DNA of 53,317 nt. It comes from Clostridiaceae bacterium (GTDB lineage: Bacteria > Bacillota > Clostridia > TANB77 > CAG-508). The DNA lies in contig JAAZCX010000040.1 of assembly GCA_012513065.1 (NCBI GenBank), positions 1-53,317 on the forward strand, written 5' to 3'. The notes beneath the pieces were generated by a model. That model was not told the origin of the DNA. It saw only the letters and a program-made list of their open reading frames with translations, and did no database searches. Every line of letters starts with the position of its first letter. Position 1 is the stretch's first letter. Below, in pieces: positions 20 to 53,297 of the stretch. Both the position numbers and the translations under genes were made by a program.

Positions 20-202
20 TTATTTTTCTTCAACCTTTTTTGTTATCATTTTTAATGCTTTAGGGCGTTCTAATATTATGATATGTCCACATCCTAAACA
101 TTTTAGTTTAAAATCTACACCTACTCTTGTAATTTCCCATAATTTGTTTCCACAAGGATGTTGTTTTTTTGTTCTTACTATATCTCCTATATTATATTCC
201 AT
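20..202 (-). CDS. DUF951-family small protein
   Basis: A 60-residue protein whose pattern is typical of DUF951: a start like NIGDIVRTKKQHPCG, then WEITRVGVDFKLKCLGCGH. The HPCG and CLGC cysteines and histidine could bind a metal, but the family has no established function. It lies 43 bases downstream of gltX on the same strand with no terminator between them, so it is probably co-transcribed from the gltX promoter. An AAAGGAT ribosome-binding site precedes the ATG. The family assignment rests on the sequence pattern; function is unknown. Confidence 0.85.
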   Translation of the reverse strand: MEYNIGDIVRTKKQHPCGNKLWEITRVGVDFKLKCLGCGHIIILERPKALKMITKKVEEK

Positions 203-245
203 TATTATTATCCTTTACTTATATTATAAAGTTCAATTTATATTT

Positions 246-1907
246 TTATTTATTTAATACTTCCATTGCTTTTTCTAATCTTTTGAATACTTTTTCTTTT
301 CCTAATATTTGCATTATTTCATACATGTCTGGAGTATTGCTCTTTGAAGTTAGTGCAACTCTTAATACCGTGCTTATATCTCCTACATGTCCTGGCCATT
401 TTTCAGGTTCTTGTTTCCACTCTTTTACTTCTCTTGCAAATCCTACTTCTTCAGCTAAATCCTTTATTTTATCAAACCACATTTGTTTATCATCATTTTC
501 ATTATAGTATTTTTCAATATATAATTTTAATATTTTTTTAATCAAATCTTTATCTATTATTTTTTGATAATCATATTCTAATTCTTTTTCATAAAATTTA
601 TTATCATACATGTATTCAATGTTTTCTTTAACATCAGACCATTTTGCTATATCTTTTCTTGGTTTTGCATTTCCTCTTTCTATTCCAAAAACTTTCAATG
701 CATATTCTTTATTTTCTAATAATTCTAAAAGCTCTTTATCGTAATTTTCAGCCCAGTTAATTGTTTCTTCATAAATTTTTTCTGCACTATATTTTGATAT
801 TACAGTTTTTGCAATATCTAATATTTTTACTATATCAAATAAAGCTCCACTAACACTCATTTTATTTAATTGTAATTCAAATTCATTTATTGATGTATTT
901 GGATTTTGTTTTCTCCACAATTCAAAACTTGAATTTGCAATATTAAGCAAATATTCAATTACAGCTTCTTTTGGTACTCCTATTTCTGTATAATAACTTA
1001 CTGCAGCTTCTGGATCTTTACGTTTGCTTAATTTTCTTTTTCCACCTTCATCTTCTTTCATTATTGGAGCAATATGTGCATACTTTGGTGCCTTAAATCC
1101 TAACATTTGAAATAATTGCAAATGAAGTGGTACTGATGATAGCCATTCATCTCCACGTATAACATGTGTAGTTTGCATTAAATGATCATCTATTGCATGT
1201 GCAAAATGATATGTTGGAAGTCCATCTGCTTTTATAATAACTATATCTTGATCATTTTCTGGGAAATCAACATTTCCTTTAATTACGTCATGATGCTTTA
1301 TTTTTCTATCTTCTTTACCTTCTGATCTTAATCTAATTATATATGAATCTCCATTTTTAATTTTTTCTGCAGCTTCTTCTACAGATAAATTTCTGTATTT
1401 TGCCCAAACCCCATAATATCCAGGTCTGATTTTTGCAGCTTCTTGTTTTTGTCTCATTTCTTCAAGTTCTTCCGGAGTTGCAAAACATGGATATGCTTTT
1501 CCTTGTTCTAATAAGTATTTTGCATATGATTCATATATTTCTTTTCTCAAAGATTGTTTATATGGTCCATAATTTCCTATTTCATTTATTTCGTCTTTCA
1601 TTCCTTCATCTGGAGTTAATCCAAAATCTTTCAAAGACTCTATAATTCCAGTTACACCATTTTCAATTTCTCTTTTTTGATCTGTATCTTCAACTCTTAA
1701 AAAGAATACTCCATTTGTTTGTTTTGCTACTTTTCTAGCAACAACTACTTGATATAGAGAACCTAAATGTACAAATCCTGTAGGACTTGGTGCAAATCTT
1801 GTTACAATTGCTCCTTCATCTAAATTTCTGTTTTTATATTTTTCTTCATAATAAGATATATCCTTTGAATTTGGAAATATCAAATTTGCTAAATCTTTAT
1901 AATCCAT
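246..1907 (-). CDS. gltX: Glutamate--tRNA ligase
   Basis: Class I aminoacyl-tRNA synthetase that charges tRNA-Glu with glutamate in the cytosol, and in clostridia often also tRNA-Gln for later amidation. The 553-residue protein has the Rossmann start FAPSPTGFVHLGS with the HIGH-type motif HLGS at residues 47-50, the KMSKS-type motif KLSKR at 292-296, and a helical anticodon-binding C-terminal region. The roughly 33-residue N-terminal extension before the catalytic core is of the kind seen in the longer clostridial enzymes. It is the first gene of a two-gene unit with the DUF951 gene and has its own recognisable promoter. Function is secure; whether it is discriminating for tRNA-Glu cannot be read from the sequence. 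Confidence 0.96.
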   Translation of the reverse strand: MDYKDLANLIFPNSKDISYYEEKYKNRNLDEGAIVTRFAPSPTGFVHLGSLYQVVVARKVAKQTNGVFFLRVEDTDQKREIENGVTGIIESLKDFGLTPDEGMKDEINEIGNYGPYKQSLRKEIYESYAKYLLEQGKAYPCFATPEELEEMRQKQEAAKIRPGYYGVWAKYRNLSVEEAAEKIKNGDSYIIRLRSEGKEDRKIKHHDVIKGNVDFPENDQDIVIIKADGLPTYHFAHAIDDHLMQTTHVIRGDEWLSSVPLHLQLFQMLGFKAPKYAHIAPIMKEDEGGKRKLSKRKDPEAAVSYYTEIGVPKEAVIEYLLNIANSSFELWRKQNPNTSINEFELQLNKMSVSGALFDIVKILDIAKTVISKYSAEKIYEETINWAENYDKELLELLENKEYALKVFGIERGNAKPRKDIAKWSDVKENIEYMYDNKFYEKELEYDYQKIIDKDLIKKILKLYIEKYYNENDDKQMWFDKIKDLAEEVGFAREVKEWKQEPEKWPGHVGDISTVLRVALTSKSNTPDMYEIMQILGKEKVFKRLEKAMEVLNK

Positions 1908-1940
1908 TAATTTTATCTCTCCTTTATAATTTATTCCTAA

Positions 1941-1969
1941 ATTATACCAAAATTCATAATGTTTTACAA
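1941..1969 (-). promoter_or_regulatory. SigA-type promoter of gltX
   Basis: On the minus strand a -35 box TTGTAA and a -10 box TATAAT (preceded by GG) are separated by exactly 17 bases and lie about 35 bases before the gltX start. Good match to the vegetative consensus. Confidence 0.7.
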
Positions 1970-1981
1970 TAGATAAAATAG

Positions 1982-2021
1982 AAAAAAGAAGTACGAAATT
2001 TAAGATTTGTACTTCTTTTTA
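1982..2021 (-). terminator. Intrinsic terminator of rnjA
   Basis: Inverted repeat AAAAAGAAGTAC / GTACTTCTTTTT with a 14-base loop followed by a T-rich run on the minus strand. It lies just after the rnjA stop and separates it from gltX. Confidence 0.8.
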
Positions 2022-2026
2022 CTTTT

Positions 2027-3922
2027 TTATAATGACATTATTATTGGTAATATCATTGGATTTCTTTTTGTTTTTTGGAATATATAATCTCTTATATGAT
2101 CTTTTAATGTAGATTTAATAGTTGGCCATTCTTTAATTCCTTTATTTTCTAATAATTGAACTTCTTCTCTAATGACTTTTTTCACATCATCCATTAAATT
2201 TTCTGATTCTTTTACATATACAAATCCTCTTGATATAACGTCTGGTCCTGATACTATTTCTCCTGTTTGATTATTCATAGTCATAACAATAACGATTAAC
2301 CCATCTTGTGATAAATGTTGTCTATCACGAAGTACGACATTTCCTACATCTCCTACTCCTAAACCATCGACTAATATTTTTCCTGATGGTACTGATCCAG
2401 TCAATTTTGCTTCTTTTTCATTTAGTTCTAACACTCTACCGTTTGTACTCATAAATATATTTTGTGGTTCTATACCCATTTTCTTTGCTGTTTCTGTATG
2501 TGCCATTAATTGTCTATATTCACCATGAACAGGTATAAAATATTTTGGCTTTGTTAAAGCTAGAATTAATTTTTGTTCTTCTTGGCAAGCATGTCCTGAT
2601 ACATGTATGTCTTCTAATGCACTATATACAACTTCTGCTCCAATTTGTAATAAATCATCTATTACTCTTGATACAGATTTTTCATTTCCTGGAATTGGAC
2701 TTGCTGATATTATAATCAAATCATTTGGAGTTATTGATATTTTTTTATGTTCTCCTGCAGCCATTCTTGTTAACGCTGACATTGTTTCTCCTTGACTTCC
2801 AGTTGTAATTATAACTAGTTTATCATCTGTATAATTTTTAATCATATCTATATCTATAAATACATTATCTGGAACATTCATATATCCAAGTTGTCTTGAT
2901 GTTTCTATCATATTGATCATACTTCTACCACATACTGCAATTTTTCTTCCATTAGCTACTGCTGAATTTACAATTTGTTGTACACGGTGTACATTTGATG
3001 CAAATGTTGCAACTACAATTCTCTTTGTACAGTTTAGAAATAATTTATCAAATACTTCTCCTACTGTGCTTTCTGACATAGTATATCCTTTTCTTTCAGA
3101 ATTTGTACTATCAGATAATAGAGCTAATATTCCTTTGTTTCCTATTTCTGCAATACGATTCAAATCAGTTGCTTCGCTATTAATTGGTGTATAATCTATT
3201 TTAAAGTCTCCTGTATGCATTATTGTTCCAATTGGAGTATATATAGCAAGCATAACTGCATCTGGTATACTATGGCAACTTCTTATAAATTCAACTTTCA
3301 TTTTTCCAAAATTTATAGTTTGTCCTTGTTCTATAATATGAAATTTTGTACTTTTTAATAATTTATGTTCTTGTAATTTATTTTTTATTAATCCTACTGT
3401 TAATTTGGTTGCATATATTGGTATATTTATTTGTTTTAAAATATAAGGTATTGCTCCAATATGATCTTCATGACCATGAGTTACAACTATTGCCTTAATT
3501 TTTTCTTTATTTCTTTCTAGATAAGTAACATCTGGAATTACTAAATCAATACCTAACATATCATCTGTAGGAAATTCTAATCCACAGTCTACAATTATAA
3601 TCTCATCTTCATATTCAAAGATTGTCATATTGTTTCCTATTTCTTCTAATCCTCCTAATGGAATAATTTTTAAGTTTGATTTTTTAAATTCAAATTTTGA
3701 TTGATTTTTACTATGTGCTTTTTTGTTGTTTGCATTTAATTCTTGTTTGTTTACATCTTTTACTTCAATCTTTGAATTACCTTCATTTGTTTTAATTTCT
3801 TTTGATTTATCTTGTTCAGGTTTTCTCGCATTACGATTATATGGTCTTCTTCCCTTTGAGTAATTTGCATCTTTTGCTTTTACACCAGATAAATCTTCAT
3901 TTTCTTTTCTCATTTCTGTCAT
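2027..3922 (-). CDS. rnjA: Ribonuclease J
   Basis: Metallo-beta-lactamase-fold ribonuclease with 5'-to-3' exonuclease and endonuclease activity in mRNA decay and rRNA maturation. The catalytic zinc motif HGHEDH is at about residues 149-154, followed by the beta-CASP domain and a C-terminal domain. The start chosen is the ATG at 3922, because GAGGAGAG lies eight bases upstream; a TTG at 3976 would place that SD inside the gene. The product is 631 residues and carries an unusual basic, Lys/Asn-rich extension of about 80 residues before the catalytic domain starts at NLKIIPLGGL. The gene is monocistronic, with its own promoter, a 340-base structured leader and a terminator. RNase J1 versus J2 cannot be decided here. 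Confidence 0.95.
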   Translation of the reverse strand: MTEMRKENEDLSGVKAKDANYSKGRRPYNRNARKPEQDKSKEIKTNEGNSKIEVKDVNKQELNANNKKAHSKNQSKFEFKKSNLKIIPLGGLEEIGNNMTIFEYEDEIIIVDCGLEFPTDDMLGIDLVIPDVTYLERNKEKIKAIVVTHGHEDHIGAIPYILKQINIPIYATKLTVGLIKNKLQEHKLLKSTKFHIIEQGQTINFGKMKVEFIRSCHSIPDAVMLAIYTPIGTIMHTGDFKIDYTPINSEATDLNRIAEIGNKGILALLSDSTNSERKGYTMSESTVGEVFDKLFLNCTKRIVVATFASNVHRVQQIVNSAVANGRKIAVCGRSMINMIETSRQLGYMNVPDNVFIDIDMIKNYTDDKLVIITTGSQGETMSALTRMAAGEHKKISITPNDLIIISASPIPGNEKSVSRVIDDLLQIGAEVVYSALEDIHVSGHACQEEQKLILALTKPKYFIPVHGEYRQLMAHTETAKKMGIEPQNIFMSTNGRVLELNEKEAKLTGSVPSGKILVDGLGVGDVGNVVLRDRQHLSQDGLIVIVMTMNNQTGEIVSGPDVISRGFVYVKESENLMDDVKKVIREEVQLLENKGIKEWPTIKSTLKDHIRDYIFQKTKRNPMILPIIMSL

Positions 3923-12381: not shown

Positions 12382-13195
12382 TCACCTCTCAAATTGATCT
12401 AAATTTGAAAATTCATATCCATTTGCTTTTATTTCTTTTATACATTTATCTAGTATATTTGTATTATCTTTTGAATTTCCATGTAATAAAATTACTGCTC
12501 CATTATGAATATTATCCATTATTTTCTTTTTTGCATATTCTTCTCTTCCTTGATTATCTTCATTCCAGTCATCATATGCAAATGACCACATTACAGTTTT
12601 ATATCCGAAGAGTATTACAATACGCCACACTTTTTTGACTATATTCACCTTTTGGTGGTCTTATATATTTCATTTCATATCCAAATTTCTCATATACTGC
12701 CGTATGTAAATCCATTACTTCTTTTTTTATTTGTTCTTCATTAAGTGATGGCATGCTTTTATGATTTACAGTGTGATTTCCTATTATATGGCCTTCTTCG
12801 ATCATTTTCTTCACTAATTCTGGTTTACTATTTATATAATGTCCTGTAATAAAAAACGTAGCTTTTACTTCATTTTGCTTTAATACTTCTAATATTTTTT
12901 CTGTATAACCTGCTTCATATCCTTCATCAAAAGTCAAATATACTTTTTTGGATTCAGAATTTCCTATTGCTATTCCTTCTTGTTCATCAATTATTTTTTT
13001 GTTTAAACTTCCTAAATCTGGTTGTTTATGATTATCATTTCTTTTTATTCCCCACTCTATTTTTTTTGAATCTAAACTTTCTAAAAAGCTACTAGTCTGT
13101 ATTGTATCTTCTTTATCAAAGCTATTTATTACGCTAACTGTAAATATTGTAAATATTAAAATACAAAATAAATAATAATACTTTTTGTTTTTCAC
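12382..13195 (-). pseudogene. pdaA: Frame-shifted PdaA-type polysaccharide deacetylase
   Basis: NodB-fold deacetylase of the delta-lactam (PdaA) type, which acts on spore-cortex peptidoglycan. The first frame (from a GTG at 13195, AAAGGAG upstream) has an N-terminal membrane segment, the LTFDEGYE motif, GNHTVNH and RPPKGEYS, then runs to a stop after AYCNTL. The next frame continues the protein seamlessly with GYKTVMWSFAYDDWN and the VILLHGNSKDN motif to a stop at 12382. Removing one base near 12607 (C on the coding strand) joins CTT to GGA and restores the full domain. It could be a true mutation or a sequence error; the second part has no plausible start of its own. Confidence 0.85.
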
Positions 13196-15301: not shown

Positions 15302-15330
15302 TTGACAATGGTCTTTTTTTGAATTATTAT
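15302..15330 (+). promoter_or_regulatory. SigA-type promoter of the agr regulator genes
   Basis: TTGACA, a 17-base spacer and TATTAT. A short GC-containing hairpin (TCCC / GGGA) followed by ATTTTTT lies right after the predicted start, at about 15338-15360, and may affect message stability. Confidence 0.7.
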
Positions 15331-15405
15331 GTAGTTAAATCCCTAAAAAAGGGAATTTTTTCCAATATACAAAAGAATAAATATATGTTCATGGAGGAAA
15401 ATTAT

Positions 15406-16161
15406 ATGTTGAATTTTGTTTTATGTGATGATAACAAAATTATTTTAGATAGACTTTCAAAAGTGTTAGAATCTCTTTTCATAAAGCATAATCTTGATGC
15501 AGAAGTTTCTTTTACTTCTATTGATCCTTTGAGTACTTTAGAATATGTAAAAAGCAATACTGTAACCGCAATCTTTCTTGATATTGATTTGAAATCAAAT
15601 ATTTCAGGTTTAGATTTAGCAAGTAAAATCAGGGAAATAGATAATAAAGTTTATATAATTTTTACAAGTGCTCATTTAGAATATATTTTAATTGCTTATA
15701 AATATAAAACTTTTGATTTTATTCCAAAGCCAATAACTTCAGAAAGATTAGAAGAAACAATTATTAGAATTATTAATGATATAAAAGATTATAAGATTAA
15801 AACCAAATTTATTAGGTTAAGTAATAGAAATACAATTATAAATCAAGATAGCGTTAAGTATATTAAAAAAGATGGTATGAAATTAGTTTTCTATACAGAT
15901 ACAAGGAAATATGAAACTTATAGTTCATTTGCGAAAATTTCAAATGAACTGCCACCAAACTTTATAAGATGTCATAAATCTTATATTGCTAATGTAGATA
16001 AAATAACTGATATAGACACTAATAATAATTTAGTGTTTTTTGATAGCAAAAATAATTCTAGTTGCTATATCGGTCCAAAATATAAAAATAAATTAATGGA
16101 GGTTTTTAATTACGATGGAAATAATACAAACAATTTGGACAGCATTGACCACACAAAATGA
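15406..16161 (+). CDS. AgrA-like LytTR response regulator
   Basis: 251 residues. The receiver domain has the acidic pair D8-D9, the phospho-acceptor D59 (in IFLDIDL), a TS near residue 87 and the PKP lysine. The C-terminal LytTR DNA-binding domain runs from about residue 140, with IRLSNRNTI, a YIKKDGMKL strand and FIRCHKSYIANVDKI. The start at 15406 is chosen because GGAGG lies eight bases upstream and the receiver fold begins at once (MLNFVLCDDN); the frame is open about 320 bases further upstream but this part is AT-rich and contains the promoter. The gene overlaps the kinase by 47 bases. With AgrB, AgrD and the AgrC-like kinase it forms a peptide quorum-sensing circuit. Confidence 0.9.
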   Translation: MLNFVLCDDNKIILDRLSKVLESLFIKHNLDAEVSFTSIDPLSTLEYVKSNTVTAIFLDIDLKSNISGLDLASKIREIDNKVYIIFTSAHLEYILIAYKYKTFDFIPKPITSERLEETIIRIINDIKDYKIKTKFIRLSNRNTIINQDSVKYIKKDGMKLVFYTDTRKYETYSSFAKISNELPPNFIRCHKSYIANVDKITDIDTNNNLVFFDSKNNSSCYIGPKYKNKLMEVFNYDGNNTNNLDSIDHTK

Positions 16162-17461
16162 AGCATTAACAACTGCACTATGTATACCCTTAACCTTTTT
16201 AGAAGGTATTGTATCTATGCTTTTATTTACAACAATCTTAAATATAAAAAGTGATAAAAGACAAAAATTTTTTTATGTGATTTTTGTTAGTGTTATTGGA
16301 TTAATAGGTAGATTTGCTATTCCAGCACCTTATAATGCTTTTTTTAATATTATTGCTATGATACTTTCTGTAAAATTTATATTTAATACAACTGTATTGA
16401 AATCTGTTTTAGGAATATTAATACCTTTTTTATTAGTAGCAATATTGGAATCTATAATTTCAAAAGTATATTATTCAATATTTAAAATAGATTATATAAT
16501 TGGAATGAATATTCCCTTTAATCGATTATGTGTAACTCTCATTATATATTTTATAGTTTTAAATATTTATTTAATAGTAAAATATTTAAAACTAAGTTTT
16601 CCTAATATTGAAGTATTAAATAAAAAACAAAGGATTTCTTTAATCCTTACAATTATATTTGGTATTATATTAATAGCTACACAATTATATACAGTTTTCT
16701 TTTATGCTGATGTACTTCCATTTTTTATAATACTTTTAAATATTTTTAGTTTAGTAGCATACTTTTTTATAAGTATGTATACAATTTTTACTGTAGCAAA
16801 ACTACAATCTACTTCAATAAATTTAGAAGAAGCAAAATTATATAATAAAACTTTACAAATACTTCATGATAATATTAGAGCATTTAAACATGACTTCTGG
16901 AATATTGTTCAAGGTATTGGTGGATATATTGGAAAAGGTGATATTGAAGGTTTAAAAAAATATTATGAGAAGCTTGTTGAAGATTGCCAACAAGTAAATA
17001 ATTTAACAGCATTAAGTCCAGAAGTTGTAAATAATCCAGCTATATATAATATTTTAGCAGATAAATATCATAATGCTGATGAACTTGGAATAAAAATAAA
17101 TTTAGAAGTATTTACTGATTTAAATGATTTTAATATTAATTATTATCAACTTATAAGAATTCTTGGAATACTTATGAATAATGCAGTAGAAGCTGCAAAA
17201 GAATGTGATGAGAAAATTATTAATGTTTGTTTTAGAAAAGATAAAAATAGACATATGCATATTATATATATTGAAAATACATACAAAGATAAAAATATTA
17301 ATACTGAAACTATTTTTGAAAAAGGCTTTTCTACAAAAGAAGGAAATACTGGTATTGGCTTATGGGAAGTAAGACAAATATTAAAGAAAAATAATAATTT
17401 AAATTTATATACTACTAAAAATAATCAATACTTCTGCCAACAATTTGAAATATATTATTAA
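16115..17461 (+). CDS. AgrC-like sensor histidine kinase
   Basis: 448-residue membrane kinase of the HPK10/AgrC type. The first roughly 225 residues hold six or seven hydrophobic segments, the expected peptide-sensing region. The phospho-acceptor is H259 in FKHDFWNIVQGIGGYI. The GHKL ATPase domain shows the N-box NNAVEAA and the G-box NTGIGLWEV. GGAGG lies 12 bases before the ATG, inside the response regulator gene. The likely signal is the AgrD-derived cyclic peptide from the convergent agrBD genes. Confidence 0.9.
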   Translation: MEIIQTIWTALTTQNEALTTALCIPLTFLEGIVSMLLFTTILNIKSDKRQKFFYVIFVSVIGLIGRFAIPAPYNAFFNIIAMILSVKFIFNTTVLKSVLGILIPFLLVAILESIISKVYYSIFKIDYIIGMNIPFNRLCVTLIIYFIVLNIYLIVKYLKLSFPNIEVLNKKQRISLILTIIFGIILIATQLYTVFFYADVLPFFIILLNIFSLVAYFFISMYTIFTVAKLQSTSINLEEAKLYNKTLQILHDNIRAFKHDFWNIVQGIGGYIGKGDIEGLKKYYEKLVEDCQQVNNLTALSPEVVNNPAIYNILADKYHNADELGIKINLEVFTDLNDFNINYYQLIRILGILMNNAVEAAKECDEKIINVCFRKDKNRHMHIIYIENTYKDKNINTETIFEKGFSTKEGNTGIGLWEVRQILKKNNNLNLYTTKNNQYFCQQFEIYY

Positions 17462-17467
17462 ATATCA

Positions 17468-17504
17468 TAAAAAACAAGATAGAAATTAATCTATCTTGTT
17501 TTTC
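17468..17504. terminator. Bidirectional terminator between the two agr halves
   Basis: Inverted repeat AAAAACAAGATAG / CTATCTTGTTTTT with an eight-base loop and T-rich tails on both strands. It serves the kinase gene on plus and agrD on minus. Confidence 0.85.
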
Positions 17505-17529
17505 TTTATATATAAAATTGTGGAATTTT

Positions 17530-17649
17530 TTAGTCTTTCTTTACAAGAGAAGCTGGCATTTTAGGTTGGTGATATATTCCAAATAAAATACATGCTGTAT
17601 TTGTAGTTTTTGCATATTTTTCTGCGATTTTTGATAATAATTTTAACAT
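17530..17649 (-). CDS. agrD: AgrD-like cyclic lactone autoinducer pro-peptide
   Basis: 39-residue ORF, shorter than most ORF cut-offs. It has an amphipathic, Lys-rich leader (MLKLLSKIAEKYAKTTN), then a core with the single cysteine C20 in ACILFGIY, and a tail HQPKMPASLVKKD. The Cys followed by a short hydrophobic stretch and QPK-x-P-x-SL is the signature of clostridial cyclic-peptide signals. AgrB would cut after the core and join C20 to the new C-terminus as a thiolactone, giving a ring such as CILFGIY; the exact end is not certain. A GGGGGG ribosome-binding site lies eight bases upstream. It is 68 bases downstream of agrB, the usual B-D order. Confidence 0.9.
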   Translation of the reverse strand: MLKLLSKIAEKYAKTTNTACILFGIYHQPKMPASLVKKD

Positions 17650-17717
17650 AATTAATTCCCCCCATATTATTTTATTTATATAATAAAGTATATTGCCGGC
17701 CAAATACTTTTATTATC

Positions 17718-18344
17718 TTAAATTGTTTGGTTTGCTTTTATATATTCTTCATACCCGTACTTATTATTGGTTAATTTATATGCTATTTTTGTAATGCTTA
17801 TTGTTTGAATAAATGTTCCTATTATCATTATATTTGAAATTATTTGATTATTTATAAAAATTGCTATTATCATATTTATAATTAACACAATATATGATAA
17901 TACTTTTTTTCTATCTCTCTCTTTTTTAGTTAAGATAGGTAAATTCTCGGTATCTGCTGGTGCATATAAGCTTATCATTATTATTCCAAATATTAATACT
18001 ACAAATATACTTATATATTTAAAAATATCATTTGGAAAATTATATACTGTACTTATGAATGCATTTCCACAATAGTTAAGAGTTGTACCAATAAAACATC
18101 CAATATGTGTTTTTAAGTGAAATCCTCCGGAACAAATTCTATATGGTAGAATTAAGAAAAATGCTAATAATGTTTGCCACCATATTCCTAATATAATTCC
18201 TATTCCAAACATAAGAAACATTTTAGGGATTTCTCCTATTATTAATTGAAGTCCATACATTATAATTTCTGCTCTTTCATCGTCAACCTCTGGCATTTTT
18301 TTTCTAATTTTATATGTCAGATATTTGCAAAATTTATCTATCAT
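17718..18344 (-). CDS. agrB: AgrB-type accessory gene regulator peptidase/transporter
   Basis: 208-residue membrane cysteine endopeptidase that trims and cyclises AgrD. The catalytic pair is visible as H76 in RICSGGFHLKTH and C83 in IGCF, matching H77/C84 of the staphylococcal protein. About five to six hydrophobic segments follow. GAGGTGA lies four bases before the ATG. It is the first gene of the minus-strand agrBD unit, downstream of a terminator and a repeat region that looks like a regulator-binding site. Confidence 0.93.
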   Translation of the reverse strand: MIDKFCKYLTYKIRKKMPEVDDERAEIIMYGLQLIIGEIPKMFLMFGIGIILGIWWQTLLAFFLILPYRICSGGFHLKTHIGCFIGTTLNYCGNAFISTVYNFPNDIFKYISIFVVLIFGIIMISLYAPADTENLPILTKKERDRKKVLSYIVLIINMIIAIFINNQIISNIMIIGTFIQTISITKIAYKLTNNKYGYEEYIKANQTI

Positions 18345-18377: not shown

Positions 18378-18442
18378 ATAATATAGTTTTTTCGACAACA
18401 TTTTTTATTTCTTATATGAAACGCAAAAAATCTTATATGAAA
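18378..18442 (-). promoter_or_regulatory. agrBD promoter with 21-bp-spaced direct repeats
   Basis: On the minus strand TTTCATATAAGA occurs at 18442-18431 and again at 18421-18410, start-to-start 21 bp. A -10-like TATATT or TATTAT lies at 18385-18378. At a 17-base spacing the -35 position (18408-18403) reads ATAAAA, a poor match, and it directly abuts the proximal repeat. Two tandem half-sites two helical turns apart next to a weak -35 is the arrangement of promoters activated by LytTR regulators such as AgrA. The half-site does not match the staphylococcal AgrA box, so the binding is inferred from geometry and context. Confidence 0.55.
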
Positions 18443-18472
18443 GATATTTTTTTTGCTTTCATATAAGATTTT
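18427..18472 (-). terminator. Intrinsic terminator after the pseudouridine synthase gene
   Basis: A 17-bp stem, AAAATCTTATATGAAAG / CTTTCATATAAGATTTT, with a 12-base loop, followed by TTTTTT-like sequence on the minus strand. Its downstream arm contains the distal TTTCATATAAGA copy of the agrBD repeat. Confidence 0.85.
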
Positions 18473-18507
18473 GCCTTGTTTGTAAAATTAACATAAAGAA
18501 ATTTAAT

Positions 18508-53167: not shown

Positions 53168-53180
53168 AAAAAATAAAAAA

Positions 53181-53297
53181 TCTGGCGACAACCTATTTTC
53201 TCAGCAGGGTAACCCGCAAATATCTTCGGCATCTAAAGGCTTGACTTCTGTGTTCGGAATGGGAACAGGTATTACCCTTTAAATCATAATCACCAGA
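53181..53297 (-). rRNA. rrf: 5S ribosomal RNA
   Basis: 117 bases, complete: the minus strand begins TCTGGTGATTATGA and ends GGTTGTCGCCAGA, so the 5' TCTGG pairs with the 3' CCAGA. The conserved interior CCTGTTCCCATTCCGAACAC and GAAGTCAAGCC are present. The final 20 bases of the window are the spacer toward the 23S gene, which lies beyond the window. Confidence 0.96.

Follow-up and report, generated by a model that had tools for sequence, protein, structure and literature searches.

A convergent agr-type locus from a family of Clostridia, with a signal precursor that predicts a seven-residue ring

The window, by which we mean the whole 53,317-nucleotide stretch of DNA analysed here, carries at one locus what looks like a complete agr-type peptide quorum-sensing circuit (Table 1). 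A LytTR regulator and an AgrC-like kinase on the plus strand face agrB and agrD on the minus strand, just as the original prediction had placed them, and all four genes are supported by Pfam or NCBIfam models. The regulator, whose start codon is the ATG at 15406, joins a receiver (Response_reg, 52.6 bits) to a LytTR domain (65.6 bits, cut-off 22.6), the combination that characterises AgrA-type LytTR regulators, and a sequence search matched it to the solved AgrA chains 3bs1, 4xqq and 4xqj. The kinase gene overlaps the regulator gene by 47 nt, and its product shows both marks of an AgrC kinase, a HATPase_c_5 domain (56.9 bits, Pfam cut-off 22) and a nearly full-length match to the AgrC profile NF046015 (residues 31-443, 121.8 bits, E 4e-35). 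Because this score and that of the regulator against the staphylococcal AgrA equivalog NF046049 (80.1 bits) lie far below the cut-offs of 500 for Staphylococcus and 400 as curated, respectively, we regard both proteins as homologous to the narrow staphylococcal groups and as standing outside them.

Table 1. Coordinates of genes and putative regulatory features at the locus (positions in the window).
Feature	Position	Strand	Basis
Sigma-70-type promoter of the regulator-kinase operon, TTGACA-17-TATTAT	15302-15330	+	11/12 consensus match
AgrA-like response regulator, receiver and LytTR DNA-binding domain, 251 aa	15406-16161	+	Pfam
AgrC-like sensor histidine kinase, 448 aa	16115-17461	+	HATPase_c_5, NF046015
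Shared hairpin terminator, 36 bases, between the two convergent stop codons	17469-17504	both	Terminator scan
agrD, signal precursor, 39 aa	17530-17649	-	TIGR04223
Predicted macrocycle C20-ILFGI-Y26, seven residues, followed by H27-Q28-P29	17572-17592	-	Conserved boundaries; predicted closure and cut site
agrB, membrane cysteine endopeptidase and cyclase, 208 aa	17718-18344	-	PF04647
Candidate -10 of agrBD (TATATT), no good -35 seen	18380-18385	-	By eye, inferred
agrB promoter array, four half-sites in two inverted pairs, ~21-bp period	18398-18499	-	Model R1, repeat search

On the minus strand, AgrB opens at 18344 and belongs to its family by score (PF04647, 142.5 bits, cut-off 23) and by its catalytic pair; H76 and C83, to which the original prediction had drawn attention, are each kept in 76 of 78 aligned AgrBs. 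A sequence search found no solved structure of any AgrB relative. The comparison of AgrD with TIGR04223 that had been proposed gave 29.8 bits, above the curated NCBIfam cut-off of 19, which places it in that family. The proposed search for further agrD copies covered the draft assembly (1.27 Mb, 93% complete, 77 contigs), where profiles detected neither a second AgrD nor a second AgrB above cut-off; another AgrB-like match, in a 395-aa frame, was rejected as agrB at 20.1 bits against the cut-off of 23. The hairpin between the two operons scores as terminator-like on each strand, in agreement with the claim of one bidirectional terminator common to both halves, in a scan that returned five terminator-like sites in 5.5 kb where 0.7 were expected.

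Beyond the helicase gene adjoining the regulator lies a polysaccharide deacetylase gene (12382-13195, minus strand; PF01522, 125 bits) that appears split across two frames, and a number of relatives show, by eye, deacetylase-like N-termini next to the regulator. An Rfam scan located a 5S rRNA gene at the end of the window (53180-53297, minus strand).

A contig scan identified 20 AgrB relatives, all by title from Clostridia, Clostridium or Clostridiales metagenome-assembled genomes, two of them from rumen samples. A profile built from 20 AgrDs had matches in 178 of the 292 family genomes, spread over 31 of 39 genera, one of the 178 matches (G032) being a frame that contains stops; the remaining 114 genomes gave no match to this profile. 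Among the genomes listed nearly all had one match, and three had a weak second. We inspected 83 loci (the window, the 20 scan loci and 62 further regions), which after removal of four duplicates and two loci from a sister family left 77 distinct family loci.

The predicted sequence of AgrD, with its sole cysteine at position 20, the core ACILFGIY and the tail QPKMPASL, could be read as originally described. The feature that the earlier account lacked, and the main novelty of the locus, is the length of the core, which exceeds the usual by two residues and places six between C20 and H27. Comparison of 78 AgrDs (76 from the family and two from the sister family) showed the precursor to be nearly invariant save for the six residues between Cys20 and His27-Gln28-Pro29, and the 78 loci have 78 different cores. 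In the 69 AgrDs with the motif at position 27, the entropy of positions 21-26 is 2.1-2.9 bits and H27, Q28 and P29 never change, so that the predicted macrocycle is bounded by a conserved C/S20 on one side and an invariant HQP on the other. The spacing from nucleophile to motif is C/S-X6 in 74 of 78 loci; a script counted 73, and L162 (CFCWGIV), which has two cysteines and was scored by the script as X4, reads as X6 by eye and brings the total to 74. Spacing X5 was found in four AgrDs (L140, L163 and the sister-family L181 and L182). The nucleophile is Cys in 73 and Ser in five, and across all 78 the six residues before the motif include no Asp, Glu, Lys or Arg and a single His.

Elsewhere in the class the core is shorter. 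Among 59 class loci, C/S-X4 was found in 54 of 55 parsed AgrDs, with [HY][EQ]P four residues after a nucleophile that is Cys in 37 and, where Cys was lacking, Ser in 17 of the 54. The remaining parsed one, an AgrD-like ORF near position 3563 of L255 (minus strand), has Thr at the usual Cys/Ser place (STATFFTSYQP), four others of the 59 gave no parse, and ambiguous ones include L242 (Cys at 6 and 4) and L280 (Cys at 3, Ser at 4). A previous set of 30 class loci, scored by eye, held 28 with X4, one with X5 (L116) and one that could not be parsed. These two sets overlap by six loci, and both were drawn with TIGR04223 matches, which may favour C-X4.

Aligned by motif, H27-Q28-P29 occupies the place of D33-E34-P35 in S. 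aureus AgrD. Since S. aureus AgrB is reported to cleave AgrD between M32 and D33, with D33-E34 essential (PMC10196373), H27-Q28 in the same place predicts a ring from C20 to Y26. The window AgrD is thus predicted to yield a seven-residue (thio)lactone, and most of the class relatives examined one of five residues. Ring sizes described for autoinducing peptides are 5, 6 and 9 in the accounts we consulted (PMC12312760; PMC4916163), and a search of titles and the beginnings of abstracts in the open-licence literature found, among the matches listed, neither a seven-residue autoinducing peptide nor a convergent agr locus in such bacteria.

It is also conceivable, though we judge it unlikely, that the circuit is real and the ring already closes at G24, which would make it the common five-residue kind (C20-G24), Ile25-Tyr26 going with the tail or being trimmed later. 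Five-residue rings dominate among the described peptides (PMC12312760; PMC4916163), and Gly occupies position 24 in 42 of the 73 X6 cores parsed by script. However, the residues at positions 25 and 26 are hydrophobic and vary (2.9 and 2.8 bits) as much as those at 21-23 do, no change occurs at 27-29, and the conserved motif that stands four residues after the nucleophile in the rest of the class stands six after it here. The window AgrD indeed departs from the usual spacing for a five-residue ring (nucleophile four before [HYD][EQ]P), which is not part of the definition of TIGR04223. The size of the ring depends on where AgrB cuts. The spacing forms a series, from C-X4 in most of the class through C-X5 in three sister-family AgrDs to C-X6 in the family of the window, and we lean towards the view that the family has a class of seven-residue (thio)lactone agr signals of its own, with a different hydrophobic hexapeptide in every species and a kinase that co-varies with the peptide it reads, and that this ring size was reached stepwise.

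The promoters of agrB carry repeats spaced by 21 bp. In the window these include a perfect repeat, TTTCATATAAG-N10-TTTCATATAAG, at 18411-18442, and the array scores 87.8 bits against model R1, of whose 28 sequences the window is itself one. Across the relatives, the best direct-repeat spacing 5' of agrB is exactly 21 bp in 30 of 76 loci (4.0 in shuffles), the commonest value, and the mean match of agrB promoters to themselves at a lag of 21 is 0.446, compared with 0.375 from one locus to another. Of the 76 agrB promoters, 38 have a near-perfect dyad between -140 and -100 (2/380 shuffles), and the other 38 lack a clear one. Within the 38 dyad loci, none of 5000 permutations reached the observed resemblance between each inner half-site and the outer half-site of its own locus, some 21 bp away. 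Setting aside ten promoters judged irregular by eye before alignment left 28, in which the arms of the dyad change together (43 double-change cells, a number reached in 0 of 500 shuffles). Model R1, drawn mostly from the genus of the window, finds arrays in 30 of 56 relatives' genomes but in 4 of 20 genera, and gives one weak match 5' of agrB in a sister-family genome (G543). LytTR-binding repeats are mostly of the form 9-12-9, that is, 9 bp separated by a 12-bp gap, according to PMC6193735, and we propose that the 21-bp-spaced repeats are of this kind and are putative sites for the regulator. A link between half-site and LytTR domain is only suggestive, the similarity being weak after controlling for the other domains (r 0.17, 28/500 permutations, 35 loci).

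The palindrome might instead be merely the intrinsic terminator of the preceding gene and no regulator site, which we think distinctly improbable. T runs follow the dyad, the ORF upstream of agrB is co-oriented in 69 of 77 loci by mechanical ORF calling (in the window it is a pseudouridine synthase gene), and most other R1 matches that were examined resemble ordinary terminators. Yet the 21-bp repeats flank the hairpin on both sides, which a terminator does not need, and the letters of the repeats agree within each locus, which a terminator does not require. The dyad may double as the terminator of the upstream gene and still form part of the putative regulator array.

Searches for further targets returned little beyond agrB itself. 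Allowing up to 3 mismatches, the agrB repeat pattern occurs genome-wide at agrB and at one other place, with 3 mismatches, within 180 bases of the end of a 5.9-kb contig belonging to the same genome (C74, L028), with none for the reversed control. Model R1 reaches this site weakly (E 0.03). The genome is so AT-rich that we take it to be probably chance, and genes on that side would fall off the contig. The same contig bears, at 24-3375, what by eye are two tandem large serine-recombinase-like genes. When the promoter DNA was compared with the genome, the array was the only confident match and the next best of 31 matches had an E of 0.1. Twelve secondary R1 matches in 12 relatives, inspected for a downstream gene in common, mostly resemble ordinary terminators at gene ends; those in L222 and L225 also sit directly upstream of a gene. 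One secondary site recurs in the same neighbourhood of two genomes (L221 3011-3114 and L223 3006-3110). It is mainly a terminator, its right end is almost identical to the outer half-site of the agrB array in the same genome, G186 (CTTTTTnTAGAAGAAAT), and the left half-sites are not shared; the gene that follows weakly resembles DUF6782, a putative family of metallopeptidases (25.6 bits, cut-off 27). This site is a possible second target of the regulator, judged from sequence. As to RNAIII, which is an Rfam family, the scan of the window reported the 5S rRNA only, and neither RNAIII nor a divergent RNAIII-like transcript from the outward-facing repeats.

Upstream of the regulator the picture is different. 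A promoter scan of the window found 45 sites overall, no excess over the 48.4 in shuffles, so the weight for the regulator promoter rests on the relatives, where 59 of 67 loci have TTGACW-N15-19-TANNWT at the regulator promoter and 83 of 1340 shuffles do (6%); the test with this sigma-70 consensus covered regulator promoters alone. Repeat spacing of 21 bp shows no excess 5' of the regulator (4/65 loci, and 7/65 further up), and in the nearer region the commonest spacing is 22 (10/65). The original prediction that the signal and sensor genes have separate promoters is supported by the contrast between 21-bp repeats 5' of agrB and a sigma-70 consensus 5' of the regulator, which most likely reflects a steadily made sensor and a feedback-controlled signal.

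Many relatives also have, after the regulator promoter, an element close to TTGGAAAAWTTAGGTAATTT, located in the regulator 5' leaders of L013, L122, L126-L128 and others. Its strict form occurs in 21 of 67 loci and 0 of 1340 shuffles, and has no match in the window leader (15331-15405). Searching eight genomes with up to 2 mismatches placed a site at the regulator promoter in five, one of which has a second, and the reversed pattern gave 2 matches. An alignment of 59 leaders gave no common fold, and a hairpin in the leader was rejected.

The four genes also keep company across the family. A kinase match was present in 70 of the 77 distinct family loci, and in 70 of 70 the kinase is convergent with agrBD. 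The region beyond agrD gave no kinase match in the other seven, of which four (L003, L022, L124 and L173) have less than 0.9 kb or nothing past agrD and are too short, and three (L141, L148 and L176) have 2.8-3.2 kb past agrD yet no match. The convergent order also holds in three loci from the sister family (L181, L182 and L290). Among the 59 class loci, which we picked from the matches listed and searched with kinase and regulator HMMs built from the family of the window, agrBD is co-directional with the nearest kinase or regulator match in 36, divergent in three and convergent in two, with no match in the region in 18.

The peptide core, moreover, co-varies specifically with the sensor domain of the kinase, as judged from the sequences of 59 loci with full kinase and regulator, the X5 and sister-family loci being left out. 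Across these loci the sensor region of the kinase averages 0.34 identity, the kinase domain 0.57, AgrB 0.51 and both regulator domains 0.56. The similarity of cores follows sensor-domain similarity with a partial r of 0.25 after the kinase domain and receiver are taken into account (0/300 permutations), controls meant to absorb the shared ancestry of which the permutation leaves some. It shows no correlation with the kinase domain, AgrB or LytTR (266, 290 and 151 of 300 permutations). That agrBD and the two-component pair are mere neighbours, the kinase sensing something else, is very unlikely: some clostridia are described as having no agrC and agrA, or agrBD and agrCA in separate operons (PMC12312760), and the three loci above have room but no kinase match near agrBD, against which stand the specific co-variation of core and sensor and the fact that in every family locus with a kinase match, 70 in all, the two halves converge.

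Taken together, the genes and their order, the conserved blocks and the repeats are read directly from the DNA, and the convergent pairing, the core-sensor co-variation, and the agrB repeats and regulator promoters make it very probable that the four genes work as one autoinducing circuit, a variant of agr rather than a wholly new type of system. That they form one circuit had been proposed originally, and the 70 convergent loci and the co-variation strengthen it. We consider it likely that this is an agr-type circuit of four genes with a seven-residue ring and feedback on agrBD. The cut site, ring size, binding and sign of control we infer as follows. AgrB would cut AgrD before His27 and join residue 26 to Cys20 in a (thio)lactone, the product being the very hydrophobic ring Cys-Ile-Leu-Phe-Gly-Ile-Tyr, and another protease would take off the N-terminal leader. 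The AgrC-like kinase, made steadily with the regulator from their own sigma-70-type promoter, would read the exported peptide and phosphorylate the LytTR regulator, which would bind the 21-bp-spaced repeats 5' of agrB and raise agrBD in a positive feedback. One Rce1-like protease is encoded elsewhere in the genome, as in 11 of 14 control genomes; MroQ belongs to the same Pfam family, and any role of the protease in this circuit is a guess. MroQ is described as the leader protease in S. aureus (PMC12312760).

Compared with S. aureus agr (agrBDCA and RNAIII), the locus has an AgrB with catalytic His and Cys, an AgrD built of leader, Cys core and conserved tail, a kinase resembling AgrC over nearly its full length, a LytTR regulator and repeats 5' of agrB; S. 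aureus AgrA binds direct repeats at P2. It differs in having two convergent operons with the regulator gene ahead of the kinase gene, a ring predicted at seven residues rather than five, and no RNAIII in the Rfam scan of the window. With the agr-like systems of Clostridium acetobutylicum and C. perfringens it shares the AgrB and AgrD families, hydrophobic cores and the class Clostridia, whereas their rings are given as six (CVLVTL) and five residues (CLWFT), respectively (PMC12312760). Like Fsr of Enterococcus faecalis (GBAP) it would combine agr-like processing with a ring of more than five residues, but GBAP is described as a lactone of nine residues that is formed from Ser and has two further residues outside the ring (PMC12312760), and the family of the window has mostly Cys.

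The size of the ring is a fundamental limit on agr signals, and altered ring size is reported not to be tolerated in S. aureus (PMC12312760). A family that apparently uses seven residues throughout would demonstrate that a shift to another ring is open to AgrB and AgrC. If this is true, the family offers a large natural set of matched peptide-receptor pairs, dozens of natural combinations of core and sensor (59 were compared here) from which to learn how a kinase reads a cyclic peptide. For uncultured Clostridia, bacteria whose functions are little known, this would also be a widespread signalling system.
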